Part shown: positions 8,412 through 16,668 of the stretch, piece by piece | Layout: the number at the start of each line of letters is the position of its first letter | Position numbering within the stretch: the stretch's first letter is position 1 | NCBI GenBank assembly: GCA_021783235.1 | Contig: JAJXUD010000039.1 | Location: forward strand, 1-41,038 | Origin: Myxococcales bacterium | Lineage (GTDB): Bacteria; Myxococcota; Myxococcia; Myxococcales; JAKAPL01 | Reading direction: 5' to 3' | Length of the DNA stretch: 41,038 nt | Program-made: the position numbers and the translations under genes | Notes under the pieces: generated by a model | Databases searched by the model: none | Seen by the model: only the letters and a program-made list of their open reading frames with translations | Told to the model about the DNA's origin: nothing

Positions 8412-9017
8412 ATGAAGCGCGCACTCGTCGCCGTCGCAGCCCTCGCCCTCCCGGCGCTCGCCCTGGCCGAGCCCACCAGCTGGAACATCGACCCCGCCCA
8501 CTCCACCGCGAGCTTCGCGGTGAAGCACGCCATGATCTCCACCGTCCGCGGCGACTTCACGAAGGTCGCCGGCACCATCGTCACGGAGGGAGACGACTTC
8601 ACGAAGGCCAAGATCGACGCCAGCATCGACGCCTCGAGCGTGGACACCCGCGTCGCCCAGCGGGACGCCCACCTCAAGAGCCCCGACTTCTTCGACGTCG
8701 CGAAGTTCCCCGCGATCACCTTCAAGTCGACCAAGATCCACAAGAAGGGCGCCCACCTCCTCGTCTCTGGCGACCTCACGATGCACGGCGTGACGAAGCC
8801 CGTGACGCTCACGGCCTCGGTCTCGAAGCCGATGCAGGACCCTTGGGGCAACACCCGCATCGGCGCCGAGGCGACCGCCACGTTGAACCGCAAGGACTTT
8901 GGCCTCGTCTGGAACAAGGCGCTCGACAAGGGCGGCGTGATGGTGGGCGACGAGGTGCAGCTGACCATCGACGTCGAGGCCACCAAGGCGGCGGCCCAGA
9001 AGACCGCGCAGAAGTAG
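8412..9017 (+). CDS. YceI-family periplasmic lipid-binding protein
   Basis: The 201-residue protein starts with a clear signal peptide (MKRALVAVAALALPALALA, cleavage before EP). The mature part opens with the family hallmark WNIDPAHSTASFAVKHAMIS. It continues with the beta-barrel pattern of YceI (FDVAKFPAITFKST, GDLTMHGVTKPV, GAEATATLNRKDFGL). YceI proteins bind polyisoprenoid or related hydrophobic ligands in a lipocalin-like barrel and are often induced by stress or high pH. AAGGAG at 8397-8402 gives good spacing to the ATG. The divergent HxlR gene and palindromic sites suggest redox-responsive control, and a strong hairpin follows the stop codon, so it appears monocistronic. The ligand is unknown. 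Confidence 0.95.
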   Translation: MKRALVAVAALALPALALAEPTSWNIDPAHSTASFAVKHAMISTVRGDFTKVAGTIVTEGDDFTKAKIDASIDASSVDTRVAQRDAHLKSPDFFDVAKFPAITFKSTKIHKKGAHLLVSGDLTMHGVTKPVTLTASVSKPMQDPWGNTRIGAEATATLNRKDFGLVWNKALDKGGVMVGDEVQLTIDVEATKAAAQKTAQK

Positions 9018-9030
9018 CTTTTCCGGCGAA

Positions 9031-9063
9031 CGCGCCGGCGGTGGGCCCCCCGCCGCCGGCGCG
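9031..9063 (+). terminator. Strong hairpin terminator after yceI
   Basis: CGCGCCGGCGG (9031-9041) pairs perfectly with CCGCCGGCGCG (9053-9063), an 11-bp GC stem around an 11-nt loop, beginning 13 nt after the yceI stop. Only a weak T-rich tail follows. It insulates yceI from the promoter that starts six bases later. Confidence 0.6.
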
Positions 9064-9068
9064 CTCGA

Positions 9069-9098
9069 TTGCCACCCGGGCCAGCCGCCGGCTATGCT
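9069..9098 (+). promoter_or_regulatory. Sigma-70-like promoter for the LPP20/FlgT/FecR operon
   Basis: TTGCCA (9069-9074) and TATGCT (9093-9098) are spaced by 18 bp and match consensus at 5/6 and 4/6 positions. Transcription would start near 9105, leaving a leader of about 37 nt before the ATG at 9142. Its position directly after a terminator hairpin supports a real operon start. Confidence 0.6.
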
Positions 9099-9141
9099 CG
9101 CTTCGTCACCGGGGGTGGAGATCTCCCCGAGCGAGGCTCGC

Positions 9142-9924
9142 ATGGCGACGCGGTTTCTGGTGGGGGTGGCGGTCGGTTGCCTGGCGCTGGCCCCGACGGC
9201 CGGCGCGATGCCCGGCGCGGGCATCGATTGGGAAAAGCGGGTCGTCGTCGCTCACGGGCAGGGGGCGCCGGATCTGAACGCGCCGAACCCCGCGGCCGCG
9301 CGCATCGGCGCCGAGCGGGCGGCGGAACTCGACGCCTTCCGCAACCTCCTCGAGGCGCTGGGGGGCGTGAAGGTCGAGGGGGGCCGGACCGCGGCCAATC
9401 TGATGGCGAAGGACGACGCGCTGAAGGCGTCGGTCGAAGGGGTCCTGCGCGAGTTCACCGTGGTCGAGCGCCACTACTTCTCGGACGGCGGCGTCGAACT
9501 CGTCGTCTCGATGCCGCTCGACGGCCGCGTGGCCGCGCTGCTCGTCCCCGCGGCCGGCGGCGCGCGGGCCGAAGCGCCCCGAGGCAAGGAGGACGTCGGC
9601 TCGGGGCTCGTCGTCGTGGCGCGCGGGCTCGCGGTGACGCCGGCGCTCGCGCCCCGGCTGCTCGATCCCTCGGGCCGAGAGCTCTACGGGCCGGGCTTCG
9701 TCCAGGTGCAGTCGCTGCGGTCGAACGGCATCGCCGGCTACCTCCACGACCTCGCCGCCGCCGAGAAGAGCGCCCGCGTCGGGGGGAAGCCGCTGACCGT
9801 GCACGCCATCGAGGCCCACGGCAGCGATCTCGTCCTCTCGGCCGCCGACGCCAAGCGGCTGGCCGATCCCGCCGCGAACCTCGGCTTCCTCGCCGAGGGC
9901 AAGGTGATCATCGTCGTCGATTGA
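9142..9924 (+). CDS. LPP20-like exported protein
   Basis: The 260-residue product has a signal peptide (MATRFLVGVAVGCLALAPTAGAMPGAG). Its central region, AARIGAERAAELDAFRNLLEALGGVKV followed by VLREFTVVERHYFSDGGVELVVSMPLDG, resembles the LPP20 lipoprotein fold shared with flagellar FlgO/FlgP-type proteins. The leader carries a cysteine, but without a convincing lipobox. I chose the ATG at 9142 because the signal peptide begins there; an ATG at 9094 falls within the predicted promoter and would add 16 non-signal residues. It opens an operon and lies 25 bp ahead of an FlgT-like gene, the same pairing seen in Vibrio flagellar clusters, though no flagellar genes are present. An envelope-assembly role is only inferred. 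Confidence 0.8.
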   Translation: MATRFLVGVAVGCLALAPTAGAMPGAGIDWEKRVVVAHGQGAPDLNAPNPAAARIGAERAAELDAFRNLLEALGGVKVEGGRTAANLMAKDDALKASVEGVLREFTVVERHYFSDGGVELVVSMPLDGRVAALLVPAAGGARAEAPRGKEDVGSGLVVVARGLAVTPALAPRLLDPSGRELYGPGFVQVQSLRSNGIAGYLHDLAAAEKSARVGGKPLTVHAIEAHGSDLVLSAADAKRLADPAANLGFLAEGKVIIVVD

Positions 9925-9949
9925 ACCCGCCCGTTCTCCCGGGGAACCC

Positions 9950-11152
9950 ATGACCGCCTCGCTTTTGACGCACTGCCTCGTCGCCGCGCTCGCCGCCGCG
10001 CCGTCGACCCCCGCGACCGAGACCGTCGAGGCCCAAGGCGAGGCCGCGGTGGTGAACGGCGACGAAGGGGCGGCCGTGGAGCAGGCGCGCGAGGCGGCGC
10101 TGCGCGAGGCGGTCTCGAGGGTCGCCGGTACGCTGGTGGGCGGCGACACGCTGACCGACGGCAACATCCTCGTGAGGGACCGCGTCTATGCCCACAGCGC
10201 GGGCTACGTGAAGAAGTGGCGCTACCTGGACAAGCCGCGGGTCTCCGACGGAGCCGCGAGCGTCCACGTCGAGGCGGTCGTCGGCACGGGCGATCTCGAC
10301 CGGGACCTCGAGGCGGTGCGCGCGCTGCTCCAGCGCAAGGACAAGCCCCGCGTGGTCCTCCTCGTCTCGGAGCAGAACGTCGGGACGGCCCAGCCCTTCG
10401 CCTGGTGGACTCGCGGCCAGAAGAGCGCCCAGGGCGGGCTCGTCTCGATGGATCTCGGGACCTTCGAGAACGGCTTCGTCTCCGCCCTCCAGAAGTTCGG
10501 CTGGAGCTTCGTCGACCACCAGGTCCTCGAGGGCAAGATCGAAGTCCAGCGGGCCGTGACGACGGATCTCTCGACCGCGGTCGCGGCCTCCTTCGGCAAG
10601 CTCGCGAGCGCCGAGGTGGCGATCTACGGCAAGGTCGTCGCCCAGAGCCCCGGGCAGAGCGAGCTCGCCCCCGGGATGTTCGCGGCCCACGCGAACGTCT
10701 CCCTGCGCGCGGTCGACTGCGACGACGGCGCGATCCTCGCGACCGTGGACGAGAGCGTGGGCGACCCGACGACCCTCGACGTGAGCGCGGAGAACGCCGG
10801 CGTCAAGGCCATCCGGCTCGCGGCGAGGAGGGCGGCGCTCGAGATGCAGCAGAAGATCCTCGAGCGCTGGAAGGGCGAGGTCGGTGGCACCCGGGGCGTG
10901 ACGCTCAAGGTCTCCGGCCTGCCGAACTACCGGGTGCTACGCGAACTCGAGGGCGTTCTCGGCAGCTCCGTCCGCGGGATCCGCGCCGTGCGGGAGCAGA
11001 CGGTCGACGGGGCCGACGCCGTCGTTCAGCTCGACGTCGAGGGCGATTCGCACATGCTCGCCGCCCAGCTGGACGGCCGCACCATCAAGGGAATGTCCAT
11101 CGACGTTCGCCGCGTGAGCGCCAATGAGCTCGACGTCCGCCTGGCGAAATAG
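9950..11152 (+). CDS. FlgT-like periplasmic protein
   Basis: The 400-residue protein has a short signal sequence (MTASLLTHCLVAALAAAPSTPA) and then a region resembling the N-terminal domain of flagellar assembly protein T. The pattern is a VEAQGEAAVVNGD strand, EQAREAALREAVSRVAG helix, RVYAHSAGYVKKWRYL and a SVHVEAVVGTGDL strand. A middle domain (about 120-290) has the FlgT/TolB-like pattern (RVVLLVSEQ..., FGWSFVDHQVLEG). The C-terminal part (about 300-400) looks like an LPP20-type alpha/beta unit. In Vibrio, FlgT shapes the H ring around the motor, but nothing else flagellar is here. I infer an envelope protein built from the same modules. Its end overlaps the next gene by 29 bp. Confidence 0.8.
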   Translation: MTASLLTHCLVAALAAAPSTPATETVEAQGEAAVVNGDEGAAVEQAREAALREAVSRVAGTLVGGDTLTDGNILVRDRVYAHSAGYVKKWRYLDKPRVSDGAASVHVEAVVGTGDLDRDLEAVRALLQRKDKPRVVLLVSEQNVGTAQPFAWWTRGQKSAQGGLVSMDLGTFENGFVSALQKFGWSFVDHQVLEGKIEVQRAVTTDLSTAVAASFGKLASAEVAIYGKVVAQSPGQSELAPGMFAAHANVSLRAVDCDDGAILATVDESVGDPTTLDVSAENAGVKAIRLAARRAALEMQQKILERWKGEVGGTRGVTLKVSGLPNYRVLRELEGVLGSSVRGIRAVREQTVDGADAVVQLDVEGDSHMLAAQLDGRTIKGMSIDVRRVSANELDVRLAK

Positions 11153-11489
11153 CCTGCTCGCCGCCTGCGCCGCGGGCTGCGCCCACGCCGCGCCCCTCTC
11201 CTTCTCCGGGCGCGCCGGGGCCGACCCGGTCGAGCGCAGGCTCGCCCTCGCGCGGCACGGCAACACGCTCGTCCGTTGCCGGCCGGACGACGCCGAGGTC
11301 CTCGTCGACGGCGTCCTGCAGGGGCAGGCGCGCGACTTCGACGGGACCACGCGGCTGCTCGCCCTCTCGCCCGGCCGCCACGAGCTCCTCGTGCGCCGCA
11401 GCGGCTACGGGAGCGTGCGGCTGGAGGTCGTCGCCTCGGCGGACGCTCGCCAGACGCTCGATTTGAGCTTGAACCCGGTCAGCCTGTGA
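11124..11489 (+). CDS. Small PEGA-domain protein, possibly a lipoprotein
   Basis: The 121-residue product has an N-terminal stretch NSLLAACAAGCAHAAP with lipobox-like LAAC and AAGC sites, so it may be a lipoprotein. The C-terminal two-thirds match a PEGA carbohydrate- or surface-associated beta module: VRCRPDDAEVLVDGVLQGQ, a linker, then LALSPGRHELLVRRSGY and VRLEV. PEGA domains often accompany kinases and envelope proteins in myxobacteria. The ATG at 11124 lies inside the end of the upstream gene (29-bp overlap, different frame), implying translational coupling. A start a few codons later cannot be excluded. It lies directly before the FecR-domain gene. Confidence 0.72.
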   Translation: MSSTSAWRNSLLAACAAGCAHAAPLSFSGRAGADPVERRLALARHGNTLVRCRPDDAEVLVDGVLQGQARDFDGTTRLLALSPGRHELLVRRSGYGSVRLEVVASADARQTLDLSLNPVSL

Positions 11490-11503
11490 AGGGGAGAATG
11501 TCC

Positions 11504-12202
11504 ATGGCGCGCCCGTTCTCGCTCCTCGCCGCCGCGGCCCTGCTCGGCGGCGCCTCGCTCGCCCGGGCCGAGCCGAGCGGCAGCGTGACGCTTCTCGCCG
11601 GCCAGGCGAGCGCCTCGCGCGCGGGGGTCCTGCGTGCGCTCCGAGCGGGGTCGGCCGTCCAGTCGGGCGACCTCGTGTCGACGGGGCCGGCGACGCGGCT
11701 CGAGATCGGACTCCCCGACGGCAGCTCGCTGCGCCTCGGGCCGACCTCGAAGCTCCGGCTCGACGAGGCCGTCTTCACGGGGGGCGGCGAGAAGCGCTTC
11801 TCGGGCAAGCTCCTCTTCGGCCGGCTCTGGGCGAAGGTCGCGGCGACGCTCGGGGGGCAGAGTCACTTCGACATCGAGACGGACAACGCGGTCGCTGGCG
11901 TGCGCGGGACGATCTTCCGCGTCGACGCGGGACGAGATCACGCGGTCCTCGTGCGCGTCTACGCGGGCGCCGTGGCCGTCGCCTCGGCGAACCGCCTGCC
12001 GCGCCCCTCGCCCGGCAGCGGTCGCTCCGAGGTGGCGGGCCCCCGGGAGGTCGATCGGGCGGCGTACGAAAAGCTCGTCTCGCGGGCGATGGAGCTGCGC
12101 GTCTCCCCCAAGGGCGATCTCGGCGAGCCCGCCCGCTTCTCGGATGCCGACGAGGCGCAGGACGAATGGGTCTCTTGGAATCGCAACCGCGACGGCCAGT
12201 AG
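11504..12202 (+). CDS. FecR-domain exported protein
   Basis: The 232-residue protein has a signal peptide (MARPFSLLAAAALLGGASLARA) followed by a FecR domain. Diagnostic parts are AGSAVQSGDLVSTGPATRLEIGLPDGSSLRLGPTSKLRL and DIETDNAVAGVRGTIFRV, the 'T..a.agVRGT.f' motif of the family. Classical FecR transmits a periplasmic signal to a sigma factor, but this secreted version lacks the N-terminal cytoplasmic and transmembrane parts. Such proteins in myxobacteria are usually of unknown binding function. AAGGGGAG at 11489-11496 fits the ATG at 11504 better than the one at 11498. Its last 37 bp overlap the transporter gene, so the two are co-translated. Confidence 0.88.
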   Translation: MARPFSLLAAAALLGGASLARAEPSGSVTLLAGQASASRAGVLRALRAGSAVQSGDLVSTGPATRLEIGLPDGSSLRLGPTSKLRLDEAVFTGGGEKRFSGKLLFGRLWAKVAATLGGQSHFDIETDNAVAGVRGTIFRVDAGRDHAVLVRVYAGAVAVASANRLPRPSPGSGRSEVAGPREVDRAAYEKLVSRAMELRVSPKGDLGEPARFSDADEAQDEWVSWNRNRDGQ

Positions 12203-13326
12203 ACGAGCCGCCCGAGGCGCCTCTGGCGCCGAGAGAAGCGCCCCCCGCGCCGGAGCGCGCCACGGCCGACCTCCTCTTCGGCCTCGGGCTCCTCGGGGCG
12301 ACGGCCGTCGGCGTGGCCCTGGTGGTGCTCCTGCGCTCGGTCGCGATCCCCGTGCTGCTCGGCGGCGCCGCGGCGTACACGCTCGGCCCCGTCGTGAGCC
12401 GGCTCGAGCGGCGGGGCCTGTCGCGCGGCGCGGCCACCGTCCTCGTCGGGCTCGCGCTCGGCGCGCTCGTCGTCGTCTTCCTCGCGTTCCTCTTGCCCGC
12501 GCTCGCGCAGGAGCTCGCGCTCGTGCCGGGCGAGCTCAAGGCGCTCGCCCGCGAGGGGCTGCCTCGCCGCCTGGGGCTCGGCCGGATCGCCTCGCGGCTG
12601 CCGGGGTGGCTCGCGAACCCCGTCGGGCTCCTCACCGACCGGACGGCCCGCGTCGCCGACGAGCTGCTCCCCGCGCTCGCCCGGCTCGGCGAGGTGGCGC
12701 TCGCCTCCACCGGCACGGCCGTCACCGTGCTCACCGGGACCATCGTCGCGCCGCTCGTCGCCTTCTACCTGCTGCGCGACTACCACCGGCTCCTCGCCGC
12801 CGCGGAGGCGCTCGTGCCCGGCCGCTACCGGGAGGCGGTGACGGCCCACGTCGGCGAGATCGACCGGGTGATGGCGGGCTTCGTCCGCGGCCAGCTCACC
12901 GTCGGCGCGCTCCTCGCGGCGGCGTACACGATCGTGCTCACCCTCTCGGGCCTCCACCTCGCGCTCCTCATCGGCGTCGTCACGGGCTTCGGCAACATCA
13001 TCCCGTACGTCGGCCTCGCGCTCGGCGCCTCGCTCTCCCTCCTCATGGCGTTGCTCCACTGGAACGGCCCCGGGACGCTTCTCGCGGTGGCGGCCTGCTA
13101 CGGCGGCCTCTCGCTCTTCGACAGCGCCTTCCTCACGCCGCGCCTCGTGGGCAACCGGGTGGGGTTGCCCGCGGCGGCCGCCGTGGTCGCGATCCTTTCG
13201 TTCGGAGCGCTCTTCGGCTTCGCGGGCGTCCTCGTAGCGGTCCCGGCGACGGCGCTCTCGAAGGTGGCCGTCCGGTCGCTCGTGCAGGCCTGGCGCGGCT
13301 CCGCGTGGTACGCTCGCCCGTCGTGA
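12166..13326 (+). CDS. AI-2E/PerM-family membrane transporter
   Basis: The 386-residue protein has the arrangement of the AI-2E exporter (TqsA/PerM/YhhT) superfamily. A cytoplasmic N-terminus rich in Pro and Glu is followed by paired helices (about 38-75 and 86-115) and a long amphipathic middle. The conserved C-terminal core is GVVTGFGNIIPYVG, then LFDSAFLTPRLVGNRVGLPAAAAV and FGFAGVLVAVPATALSKV. Members export small molecules or sodium; the name does not establish an AI-2 substrate, and no luxS-like gene is present. It starts inside the FecR gene (37-bp overlap) and its TGA overlaps the GTG of the next gene, so it is embedded in the operon. About eight membrane segments are expected. Confidence 0.9.
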   Translation: MGLLESQPRRPVDEPPEAPLAPREAPPAPERATADLLFGLGLLGATAVGVALVVLLRSVAIPVLLGGAAAYTLGPVVSRLERRGLSRGAATVLVGLALGALVVVFLAFLLPALAQELALVPGELKALAREGLPRRLGLGRIASRLPGWLANPVGLLTDRTARVADELLPALARLGEVALASTGTAVTVLTGTIVAPLVAFYLLRDYHRLLAAAEALVPGRYREAVTAHVGEIDRVMAGFVRGQLTVGALLAAAYTIVLTLSGLHLALLIGVVTGFGNIIPYVGLALGASLSLLMALLHWNGPGTLLAVAACYGGLSLFDSAFLTPRLVGNRVGLPAAAAVVAILSFGALFGFAGVLVAVPATALSKVAVRSLVQAWRGSAWYARPS

Positions 13327-14183
13327 TCGGAACCCTCTCCCTGTTTTTCGCGCTCGCCGCGGGGCCCGCCGCGCCCCTCGGCGGCGACTGGGCGACGCCC
13401 GCGGGGACCCTCTCCCTCTCGCAGCAGGGCGAGCGCGTGACCGGCATCCTCATGGCGCCAGCCGCGGGTTGCCCCCGCGCCCGGGGGAGCGAGACCTTGC
13501 GGGGCGAGCTGCTCGAGGACAGCCTGAGCGGCGACGTCCAGCTCTGCCTCTCGGGCTGCGCGGCGCCGCCCGGCGGCGTGCCGATCCTGCTCCTGCTCTC
13601 GCCGGACGGAAACCGCCTCGCGGGCGCGCTGAGCCTGCCGACCGGCTGCCGGGCGGCGGGGCTCTCCGGCGCCGCCTTCGTGGCCGAGCGGCTGCCAGAG
13701 GCCCCGGCGTCGTCGCGCCCCGCCCGGGCCCCCGCCACGGCGCCGCGCCGACGGCTCGCCCGCGAGCTTCGGCCCACCGAACCCGACGCTCGTCGGAAGG
13801 CCCAGGCGATGGCCTCGGAGGGCGAAGAGCTCATGCGCGAGGGGCGCTTCGAACGGGCGCGCGAGCGGTTCCTCGAGGCCGTCCGGCTGGATCCCAGCTA
13901 CGGCGAGGGCTTCGACGGCGTCGGCGTCACCTTCCGGGCGCGCAACGACCTGCCCGAGGCGCTGCGCTGGTACAAGCGGGCGCTGGAGGCCGACCCGCGG
14001 CTCGGGGACGCCTACTACAACATCGGCTGCGTCTACGCGCTCGAGGGAGAGAAGGCGCTCGCGCTGCGCTACCTGCGGACGGCCGTGAGGAACGGCTACG
14101 CCTCGCTCGAGACGCTCTCTCGCGACCCCGACCTCGCGCCGCTGCAGGGCGAGCCCGAGTTCCGCGCGCTGGAGCGGCGGTGA
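13323..14183 (+). CDS. Exported TPR-repeat protein
   Basis: The 286-residue product starts with a hydrophobic leader (MIGTLSLFFALAAGPAAP, GTG start). Next comes a beta-rich domain of about 100 residues with five cysteines (GCPRAR, VQLCLSGCAAPP, PTGCRAAG) and an Arg/Pro linker. The C-terminal third is a tandem of TPR motifs, including ARERFLEAVRLDPSYGEGFDGVGVTF, ALRWYKRALEADPRLGDAYYNIGCVYALEGE and ALRYLRTAVRNGYA. TPRs mediate protein-protein contacts. The start is chosen because GTG overlaps the upstream TGA (GTGA) and begins the leader. The stop again overlaps the GTG of the kinase, so transporter, TPR protein and kinase are tightly coupled. The TPR partner could be an envelope complex made by the same operon; this is inference. 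Confidence 0.88.
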   Translation: MIGTLSLFFALAAGPAAPLGGDWATPAGTLSLSQQGERVTGILMAPAAGCPRARGSETLRGELLEDSLSGDVQLCLSGCAAPPGGVPILLLLSPDGNRLAGALSLPTGCRAAGLSGAAFVAERLPEAPASSRPARAPATAPRRRLARELRPTEPDARRKAQAMASEGEELMREGRFERARERFLEAVRLDPSYGEGFDGVGVTFRARNDLPEALRWYKRALEADPRLGDAYYNIGCVYALEGEKALALRYLRTAVRNGYASLETLSRDPDLAPLQGEPEFRALERR

Positions 14184-15112
14184 GCGGGCCCGCCCCCGAG
14201 GCCCCTGGGAGGCGGCTCGGCCGCTTCTCGCTCCAGGCCCGCATCGGCAAGGGCGGCATGTGCGAGGTCTACCGCGCGGTCGTCCGCGAGGGGCCCGACG
14301 CCGGGCGGACTCTCGCCATCAAGCGGCTCTCCCCCGAGATGGCGAAGAACCCCCAGGCCATCGACCGCTTCCTCCTGGAGGCCGACGTCTCGTCGCTCCT
14401 CCGCCACCCGAACATCATCGAGGTCGTCGAGGCGGGCGAGGCGGGCGGCAGCTACTTCATCGCGATGGAGTACGTCGACGGTCGCGATCTCGGCGCCATC
14501 CTCGAACGCTGCCGCGCGAAGGGGATCCTCCTCCCGCCGGACTTCTCGGTCTACCTCGTGGCCTGCCTGCTCGACGCGCTCGACTTCGCCCACGACGCCG
14601 TCGCGCCGACGGGCGATCCGCTCGGCATCGTCCACTGCGACGTCTCGCCGGGCAACGTCTTCATCTCGCGGCTCGGCGAGATCAAGCTCGGCGACTTCGG
14701 CATCGCCCGGGTCCGCGCCGTCGAGCAGGCCGCCGAGGTCGGGGTCTGGGGGAAGCCCTACTACCTGCCGCCCGAGGCCTTCGACGACGCGCCGCCGACC
14801 CCCGCCTTCGACCTCTGGGCCGCGGCCGTGATGCTCTACGAGCTGCTCACGAACCGGCGGCCCTTCACGGGCAGCTCCATCGACGAGGTGGCGGCGGCGG
14901 TGCGGCGCGCGGCCCCGGTGCCCCCCGCGGAGCTCCGGCCCGGTCTCGCCCCCGAGCTCTCGGAGGTGGTGATGAACGGCTTGAGCCGCGACCCGGATCG
15001 GCGTTATGCCACTGCGGGCTGGTTCAAGGCGGCGCTCGGACCGTTCTGGGACGACCGGATCGGAAACCAGATGGCGATCGCCGCGGTGGTGCGCGGGTTG
15101 TTCGGGACCTAG
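14180..15112 (+). CDS. Hanks-type Ser/Thr protein kinase
   Basis: The 310-residue protein is a kinase domain with little else and no membrane segment. The glycine loop IGKGGMCEVYRA lies at 22-33, the ATP-anchoring lysine is Lys48 in LAIKRL, and the catalytic loop is HCDVSPGN (H152-C153-D154). The magnesium motif is DFG at 172-174 and the APE-like segment is LPPEAF. The catalytic Asp and Lys are present, so activity is likely, but Cys153 replaces the usual Arg. It is therefore a non-RD kinase that should not need activation-loop phosphorylation. The 'DVSPxN' version is common in myxobacterial kinases. It starts at GTG overlapping the stop of the TPR gene. An 81-residue protein follows 15 bp later. 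Confidence 0.93.
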   Translation: MSGPAPEAPGRRLGRFSLQARIGKGGMCEVYRAVVREGPDAGRTLAIKRLSPEMAKNPQAIDRFLLEADVSSLLRHPNIIEVVEAGEAGGSYFIAMEYVDGRDLGAILERCRAKGILLPPDFSVYLVACLLDALDFAHDAVAPTGDPLGIVHCDVSPGNVFISRLGEIKLGDFGIARVRAVEQAAEVGVWGKPYYLPPEAFDDAPPTPAFDLWAAAVMLYELLTNRRPFTGSSIDEVAAAVRRAAPVPPAELRPGLAPELSEVVMNGLSRDPDRRYATAGWFKAALGPFWDDRIGNQMAIAAVVRGLFGT

Positions 15113-15127
15113 CGGAGGAGGCGACAC

Positions 15128-15373
15128 ATGGCGGACGACGTGCAGGCGGAGCTCGAGCGGTTGCGAGCCGAGAACGAGGCGCTCAAGCAGCGCGGGGCGA
15201 AGGCGACAGGGCTCAAGGTGAGCGAGAAGGGCGGCGTCTCGGTCTACGGGCTGGGCCGCTTTCCGGTCACCTTGTACAAGGAGCAGTGGGAGAAGCTGCT
15301 CGGCATGGCCGACGACATTCGCGCCTTCATCAAGGAGAACGAGGCCAAGCTGAAGGTGAAGGAGAAGGCCTAG
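15128..15373 (+). CDS. Small coiled-coil protein downstream of the kinase
   Basis: I do not recognise this 81-residue protein. A strong ribosome site (GGAGG, 15115-15119) precedes the ATG. Residues 1-22 form a short leucine-heptad coiled coil (VQAELERLRAENEALKQRG). Next comes a compact segment with several glycines and aromatics (LKVSEKGGVSVYGLGRFPVTLYKEQWEKLLG), then a lysine/glutamate-rich tail. The segment before the tail looks like a small conserved domain that could be phosphorylated or bind the kinase. It is the last gene of the run and sits 15 bp after the kinase stop. A hairpin follows. Function unknown; a kinase partner or substrate is only a suggestion. Confidence 0.85.
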   Translation: MADDVQAELERLRAENEALKQRGAKATGLKVSEKGGVSVYGLGRFPVTLYKEQWEKLLGMADDIRAFIKENEAKLKVKEKA

Positions 15374-15379
15374 GCCACC

Positions 15380-15403
15380 GCGCCGGCCGCCTCGGGTCGG
15401 CGC
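15380..15403. terminator. Hairpin between convergent genes
   Basis: GCGCCGGC (15380-15387) pairs with GTCGGCGC (15396-15403) with one G-T wobble around an 8-nt loop. It sits in the 50-bp gap between the small coiled-coil gene and the oppositely oriented transporter gene, so it could terminate both. No T-tract is present. Confidence 0.5.
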
Positions 15404-15423
15404 CGTCTTCGCTCTCGGGCCCC

Positions 15424-16668
15424 TCAGCCCGTCGCCCAGAGCCAGCCGACGAGCACGGCGCTCGTCGCGAGCGTCACGGGTACGCCCGCCCGGGCGTACT
15501 CCCAGAAGCTGATGCGGTGCCGCCTCGCGGCACCTTCGGCCACGATGAGGTTCGCGACCGAGCCGACGAGGGTGAGGTTCCCCGCGAGGGTGGAGGAGCC
15601 GGCGAGGGCGAGCCACATGAGCGCGGGGCGCGCGAAGCCGCGCATCCAAGGGGCGGCGACGAGTACGAACGGCACGTTCGAGAAGGCGTTCGACGCGAGC
15701 AGGCTGAAGGCCGAGAAGGCGGCCATCTGCCGTCGGGCGCCGGCGCCGAAGAAGGGGAGCGCCGCGCGGAAGGCCTGGTTCGGAATCCCGGTCCGGTCGA
15801 AGCCGTCGACGACGACGAAGAGGGCGGCGAAGAAGAGGAGCAGGGACCAGTCGACCTCGCGGAGGAGCTCCTGGGCCCGCCGGATCGACAGGACGAGGAG
15901 GAAGGTCCCTCCGCCCAGCGCGACGAGCGTCAGCCCTCCGCCGAGGGCAAAGCCGAGCGTCGTCCCCACGAGCGCCACGGCGAGGACCGGGCGGCGGCGT
16001 CGCCAGTAGACGTCGGTCTCGGGGAGCGGCTCCTCCGGTCCGGCCTCCGCGCCCCGCAGCCCGCCTCGGAAGAGCAGGCCGAGGAGGAGCGCGGCCAGCG
16101 CGAGGCCGACCGCCGCTGGAGGGCCAAGCCGAGCGAGAAAGGCGAGGTAGGGCCAGCCCGAGCGGACGCCCACGATCATGTTCTGGGGGTTGCCGGTGAG
16201 CGTCGCCATGCTGCCGACGTTGCTCCCGGTCGCGAGCGCGAGCAGGAAGGGGAGGGGGCGGAGCCGGGCGCGATCGCAGATCGACAGGACGAGCGGCGTG
16301 CCGACGAGGCAGACGGCGTCGTTGAGGAGCAAGGCCGAGAGGATCCCCGCCGAGAGCGTGACGAGCCAGAGGAGGAGCCCCGGCCTCTCGCCGAGGTGGC
16401 CGCCGACCCAGCGGGCCGCGTGGCTCAGCGCCCCCGTTCGGTCGAGCCCTCCCGAGAGCAGCATCATCCCGAGGAGCAGCCCGAGCGTCGCGCCGTCGAT
16501 GGCGCCCCAGGCCTGTCGGGGGGAGAGCGCGCCCACCGCGAGCATGAGGAGCGCCCCGGCGAGCGCCGCGACCGGCCGCGAGCGGGGCCAGGGCGGCAAG
16601 GGGAGGCCGGCGATCGCGAGGTAGGTGGCCGCAAAGACGAGCGAGGTGACGAGCGTCCGGGTCGGCAT
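15424..16668 (-). CDS. ArsB/NhaD/SLC13-like ion transporter
   Basis: The 414-residue protein has about eleven hydrophobic segments and the two internal signatures of the ion-transporter superfamily. These are NVGSMATLTGNPQNMIVG in the first half and SSTLAGNLTLVGSVANLIVAEGA in the second, the inverted-repeat clamshell loops. Relatives export arsenite (ArsB), exchange sodium (NhaD) or import dicarboxylates (CitT). The exact substrate cannot be read, and no arsR or arsenate reductase is nearby. The ATG at 16668 has AAGGAG at a good distance, and only 20 bp separate it from the divergent ATP-grasp gene. The transporter's leader therefore overlaps the ATP-grasp coding start, and promoters must lie inside the genes or overlap. 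Confidence 0.9.
   Translation of the reverse strand: MPTRTLVTSLVFAATYLAIAGLPLPPWPRSRPVAALAGALLMLAVGALSPRQAWGAIDGATLGLLLGMMLLSGGLDRTGALSHAARWVGGHLGERPGLLLWLVTLSAGILSALLLNDAVCLVGTPLVLSICDRARLRPLPFLLALATGSNVGSMATLTGNPQNMIVGVRSGWPYLAFLARLGPPAAVGLALAALLLGLLFRGGLRGAEAGPEEPLPETDVYWRRRRPVLAVALVGTTLGFALGGGLTLVALGGGTFLLVLSIRRAQELLREVDWSLLLFFAALFVVVDGFDRTGIPNQAFRAALPFFGAGARRQMAAFSAFSLLASNAFSNVPFVLVAAPWMRGFARPALMWLALAGSSTLAGNLTLVGSVANLIVAEGAARRHRISFWEYARAGVPVTLATSAVLVGWLWATG

Follow-up and report, generated by a model that had tools for sequence, protein, structure and literature searches.

A conserved FlgP/FlgT-type gene core and a lineage-specific tail in a Myxococcales operon, with a candidate role in the cell envelope

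Gene content and transcription signals

The window, the whole 41,038-nucleotide stretch of Myxococcales JAKAPL01 contig JAJXUD010000039.1 that we analyzed, carries eight tightly packed open reading frames on the plus strand at positions 9142-15373. A first-pass annotation had described eight genes in a row, and we found all of them in their places. The features are as follows.

9031-9063, plus strand: GC-rich 15-bp stem-loop, terminator-like without a T tract, separating a YceI-like gene from the operon (folding energy -40.6 kcal/mol, z -4.68)
9069-9098, plus strand: sigma-70-like promoter, TTGCCA-18-TATGCT (promoter scan)
9142-9924, plus strand: FlgP/LPP20-like exported protein, with an SHS2/FlgP domain and a second domain like Tp0624 D2 (profile and fold matches)
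9950-11152, plus strand: FlgT-like exported protein, with FlgT_N/FlgP-type, CsgG/FlgO-type middle and C-terminal beta-alpha-beta-beta-alpha-beta domains (Pfam, model, folds)
11124-11489, plus strand: PEGA-domain lipoprotein (Pfam PEGA; lipobox in the family)
11498-12202, plus strand: FecR-domain exported protein, LipL45/Lsa33-like (Pfam FecR)
12166-13326, plus strand: AI-2E-family transporter, inner membrane (Pfam)
13323-14183, plus strand: TPR protein with a signal-like N-terminus, GTG start (Pfam TPR_2)
14180-15112, plus strand: cytoplasmic Ser/Thr kinase, non-RD, HCD motif, GTG start (Pfam Pkinase)
15128-15373, plus strand: highly conserved coiled-coil protein of 81 aa, without a fixed link to the core operon

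Four of the junctions between these genes are overlaps (29, 37, 4 and 4 bp) and three are gaps (25, 8 and 15 bp), so that the earlier count of five genes with overlapping ends (4 to 37 bp) was slightly off. For the FlgP-like gene we preferred the start at 9142 because the upstream ATG at 9094 falls in the -10 box. The promoter is the sole sigma-70-like site in 6.8 kb (8900-15700), against a mean of 0.0 in shuffled sequences. The operon had been said to begin at a good promoter after a terminator; the promoter holds, while the terminator is a strong stem-loop lacking a T tract, and our scan of the region found no canonical intrinsic terminator. Judged by their N-termini, the LPP20/FlgP-like, FlgT-like, PEGA and FecR proteins are exported, as probably is the TPR protein. 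The eight-gene row is two things joined, a conserved core at the front and a lineage-specific tail.

Domains and predicted folds of the four core proteins

The window's FlgP-like protein on its own scores below the LPP20 Pfam cut-off (16.9 against 25.9 bits), and 14 of 21 aligned members of its family match LPP20 (best 5.4e-06). A profile of this family matched Campylobacter jejuni FlgP (9hmf; E = 1.9e-13) in an alignment that ran without large gaps through the ring-forming insert, Vibrio-type FlgP (8z5n; 4.9e-9) and, over its whole length, Treponema Tp0624 (5jir; 1.8e-14). The 9hmf entry comes from the paper on the C. jejuni motor, in which ring formation across this family was found to correlate with an insert that follows the SHS2 helix and precedes the second strand (PMC12222027). 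The insert is mostly helical rather than a beta-hairpin in our model of the FlgP-like monomer (pLDDT 88.6), and the FlgT-like model has a hairpin at that place. The FlgP-like model matched the fold of Tp0624 D1-D2 over 255 columns (E = 1.2e-12, TM 0.68).

The FlgT-like protein likewise falls short of the FlgT_N cut-off by itself (E = 1.4e-5; 25.9 against 28.8 bits), and all 30 aligned family members match FlgT_N (best 5.8e-14). The best folds for its model (pLDDT 80.9) were those of FlgT (8z5n and 3w1e, E = 5-6e-10), followed by FlgP and CsgG; whole-chain TM-scores are low (0.3), and only domains of the model therefore superpose on FlgT. The N and M domains stand in the order seen in FlgT, and a beta-alpha-beta-beta-alpha-beta unit takes the position of FlgT_C, for which there was no match among the 30 family members. 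By profile comparison, this protein also aligns with the FlgP/FlgT-type domain through the ring-forming insert, and its middle domain resembles CsgG, GNA1162 and PelC in fold.

The PEGA and FecR assignments exceed their gathering cut-offs (PF08308, 22.5 against 20.8 bits; PF04773, 3.9e-15, 56.5 against 24 bits). We found a lipobox in 23 of 37 PEGA family members, and lipoboxes are absent, with few exceptions, from the FlgT-like and FecR proteins. The FlgT-like family resembles leptospiral LipL46: 28 of 35 members match that profile (NF033164; best 1.9e-21), the window protein reaching 20.8 bits where the equivalog cut-off is 400 bits. The FecR protein matches LipL45 (2.5e-15) and Lsa33 (8.4e-14), in both cases far under the cut-offs.

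These likenesses bear on the main rival to a scaffold or export ring, namely that the FlgP-like protein and its partners form a passive stabilizer that braces the outer membrane to the cell wall, with neither ring nor export, as has been proposed for Tp0624 (PMC5104382); LipL46/LipL45-like surface proteins may do likewise. The whole-length fold match to Tp0624 and the LipL46 and LipL45 matches are what such a stabilizer would lead one to expect, but a Pfam search of the four core proteins turned up no OmpA-type domain for binding the cell wall, and the CsgG- and PelC-like middle domain of the FlgT-like protein recalls pieces of export systems. We consider passive bracing somewhat unlikely.

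Conservation and genomic context of the core

The FlgP-like protein is present in 146 of 195 Myxococcota genomes, and the FlgT-like protein was matched in 64 of the 145 genomes of the order. FlgT gene neighborhoods repeatedly showed LPP20 upstream and PEGA, FecR or both downstream; loci from many further families of the phylum are again ordered LPP20-FlgT-(PEGA)-FecR, and this order extends into deltaproteobacterial loci. We collected loci with the FlgP-like alignment, as no part of the full FlgT alignment was conserved well enough for such a search, and obtained 104 non-redundant core loci, 87 with at least 4.2 kb and 74 with at least 7.5 kb of downstream sequence. Among the 87, a FlgT-like gene occurred in 76, FecR in 70 and PEGA in 49; FlgT and FecR were both present in 69, both missing in 10 and found singly in 8. 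These linkage counts are only descriptive because the loci were picked by FlgP-like or FlgT-like matches and related genomes are not independent. An AI-2E gene follows the core in 33 of the 74 longer loci.

In a single family (f2), the FlgP-like and FlgT-like genes are fused at six distinct loci, giving proteins of 529-561 aa. The fusions lie at L020:8464-10110, L015:8318-9949, L023:5342-7024, L026:5630-7234, L018:2545-4161 and L025:8922-10508. Genomes of the Myxococcus/Corallococcus type (L172-L176, L074, L085 and L091) still carry the FlgP-like gene and a PEGA gene, as a rule along with AI-2E, and have lost FlgT and FecR together; because several of them keep the FlgP-like protein in this way, the full core set is not always needed. 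From the kept order, the fusions and the paired loss, the undescribed envelope complex that had been proposed for all eight genes appears to be a good guess for the front part.

The surroundings of the core are also recurrent. A PilZ-domain gene lies beside the core in 41 of 97 loci, on its upstream side. In L035 and 35 further loci it comes immediately ahead of the FlgP-like gene, which suggests a c-di-GMP link that has been separated in the window genome. On the other side, in varying combination, are a CDP-alcohol phosphatidyltransferase, the permease, a uracil-DNA glycosylase and, just downstream of the core in many genomes, thrS-infC-rpmI-rplT-pheS. Because the neighborhood also holds housekeeping genes, some of the linkage may be inertia. 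Taken to its end, this would mean that the core genes stay together through the adjoining thrS-pheS cluster and not through joint work of their products, and the frequent position just upstream of that cluster is in keeping with it. However, in the window genome the core lies on contig C125, thrS on C6 and the PilZ orthologue on C116, so the core was moved away and yet kept whole; this, together with the FlgP-FlgT fusions and the paired loss of FlgT and FecR, makes neighborhood alone an improbable explanation.

Two deltaproteobacterial loci, L082 and L088, carry genes for a TPR protein, a GNA1162-like protein and a CsgG protein with a FlgT_C-like end, all within the operon, and L096 has two CsgG-like genes there. 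The CsgG protein at L082:7182-8165 has a FlgT_C-like C-terminus scoring 26.9 bits against a cut-off of 27. Among the core loci, CsgG (PF03783) was matched only in these three, and there was no match in the window genome.

The permease and the downstream genes

The permease is a clear member of the AI-2E family (PF01594; 1.3e-44, 153.1 against a cut-off of 34.3 bits). We set aside a quorum-sensing meaning of "AI-2E", as the family name does not show the substrate. The TPR protein matches TPR_2 (1.4e-14). The kinase exceeds the Pkinase cut-off (5.4e-35; 121.5 against 31.7 bits) and, with HCDVSPGN and DFG motifs, is a Hanks-type kinase that has the catalytic Asp and is non-RD. The 81-aa protein, which has a KVSEKGGVSVYGLGRFPVTLYKEQW core, reached the cut-off of no family in Pfam or NCBIfam and had nothing in PHROGs; full-length matches in other genomes share 58-82% identity. 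One match, at 62%, lies on an Acidisarcina plasmid (NZ_CP030843.1:120979-121209).

Within the order, the TPR protein is matched in 70 of 145 genomes and the 81-aa protein in 40 of 145, and in the relatives compared both genes are on other contigs than FlgT. Other families of the order have the TPR and kinase genes as a separate pair (L060-L062, L112-L114, L116 and L126), and the kinases of these pairs have a VHCD motif in common. The pair of TPR protein and non-RD (HCD) kinase (13323-14183 and 14180-15112 in the window; L112, L113, L114, L116 and L126) is a possible small signaling unit. An 81-aa gene near the core was found only in the window among the 104 core loci.

The first-pass annotation had placed the whole set in one envelope complex under kinase control. 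The short gaps and overlaps that run throughout the set in the window genome agree with a single eight-gene complex, as does the AI-2E-kinase-coiled-coil order in a sister genome (G039), but there that order occurs without the core, and a second sister genome (G040) has the core with neither permease nor kinase adjoining. In three other FlgT-bearing loci (L153, L159 and L171) a kinase is also found downstream of the core, likely by chance, given three cases in more than 60 loci of kinase-rich genomes. The window genome itself has 42 kinase-domain matches, and a nearby kinase is for this reason weak evidence. From the separate TPR-kinase pair, the arrangements in the two sister genomes and the restriction of the 81-aa gene near the core to the window, we regard the tail as a recent neighbor: the TPR, kinase and 81-aa genes would have joined the transcript only in the window lineage. 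One kinase-controlled complex of all eight products is very improbable, and we ruled it out because relatives show no linkage between the core and the last three genes. Of the gene order that the annotation had asked about, LPP20-FlgT-PEGA-FecR(-AI-2E) is thus kept across Myxococcota, and orthologues of the last three genes lie scattered in relatives, the pattern that the annotation had named as refuting its proposal.

Flagellar genes

No FlhA was found in the window genome, which is 97% complete, in agreement with the statement that no flagellum gene is present. A flagellar remnant was ruled out, there being no FlhA and no flagellar neighbors. Among 63 FlgT-positive genomes, FlhA over the cut-off is absent from 45. 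FlgT presence was associated with FlhA at an odds ratio of 2.9 (p = 0.019), an association to which we give no weight because it is uncorrected for kinship.

Proposed function

We propose that the front four genes, often with the permease, are a conserved, flagellum-independent envelope module of FlgP/FlgT type that serves as an outer-membrane scaffold or export ring, a reading to which we give an even chance. After secretion to the periplasm, the FlgP-type and FlgT-type proteins would assemble into oligomers on the inner side of the outer membrane, much like FlgP and FlgT at the flagellum. Membrane anchoring would come from the PEGA lipoprotein, and the FlgT-like protein may have the FecR-domain protein as its partner. 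The resulting complex would most likely be used as a scaffold or as a ring for export, with a presumptive cargo and phenotype. Between the two, we lean towards export, in view of the CsgG-like middle domain and of the deltaproteobacterial loci that have CsgG and GNA1162 genes within the operon.

The outer-membrane disks of flagella (FlgP, FlgT and FlgO) are regarded as accessories of the motor. A phylum-wide operon of the same domains that is found also in non-flagellates, with FlgP-FlgT fusions and a CsgG version, suggests an older envelope module, which may have been co-opted by flagella. Tentatively, and with the balance leaning somewhat against it, Myxococcota may have a flagellum-independent FlgP/FlgT-type outer-membrane ring or export machine with PEGA and FecR partners, this machine and the flagellar disks being two uses of one older module, to which CsgG-type pores belong in the deltaproteobacterial version. 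The origin of flagellar disks would thereby become testable in laboratory myxobacteria. We found no description of this operon in the open-access literature searched, and the proposal offers an initial idea of function for a gene family that most Myxococcota carry.

Comparison with known systems

A close likeness is to the flagellar rings built from FlgO, FlgP and FlgT, the H ring of Vibrio and the FlgP basal disk of Campylobacter, with whose FlgP-type SHS2 domain the core aligns by profile through the insert, although the model of the FlgP-like protein has mostly helices there. Vibrio FlgT, the best fold match of the FlgT-like protein, has the same order of FlgT_N and a FlgO/CsgG-type middle domain. 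Unlike the flagellar rings, the system described here has no flagellum and no FlgT_C and has PEGA and FecR partners; unlike flagellar FlgP, its FlgP-like protein is not a lipoprotein and carries an extra C-terminal domain. The CsgG, GNA1162 and PelC export lipoproteins share the fold of the FlgT-like middle domain, and deltaproteobacterial loci carry CsgG and GNA1162 genes, whereas the window genome lacks a CsgG match and its FlgT-like protein is not a lipoprotein. Leptospira LipL46 and LipL45/Lsa33 match the FlgT-like and FecR proteins by profile at the level of the family, but the window proteins score far under the NCBIfam cut-offs and, with few exceptions, lipoboxes are lacking. Finally, D1-D2 of Treponema pallidum Tp0624 match the FlgP-like protein over its full length in both fold and sequence; the FlgP-like protein, in contrast, is without the OmpA-like D3, and its operon mates are of FlgT, PEGA and FecR type.
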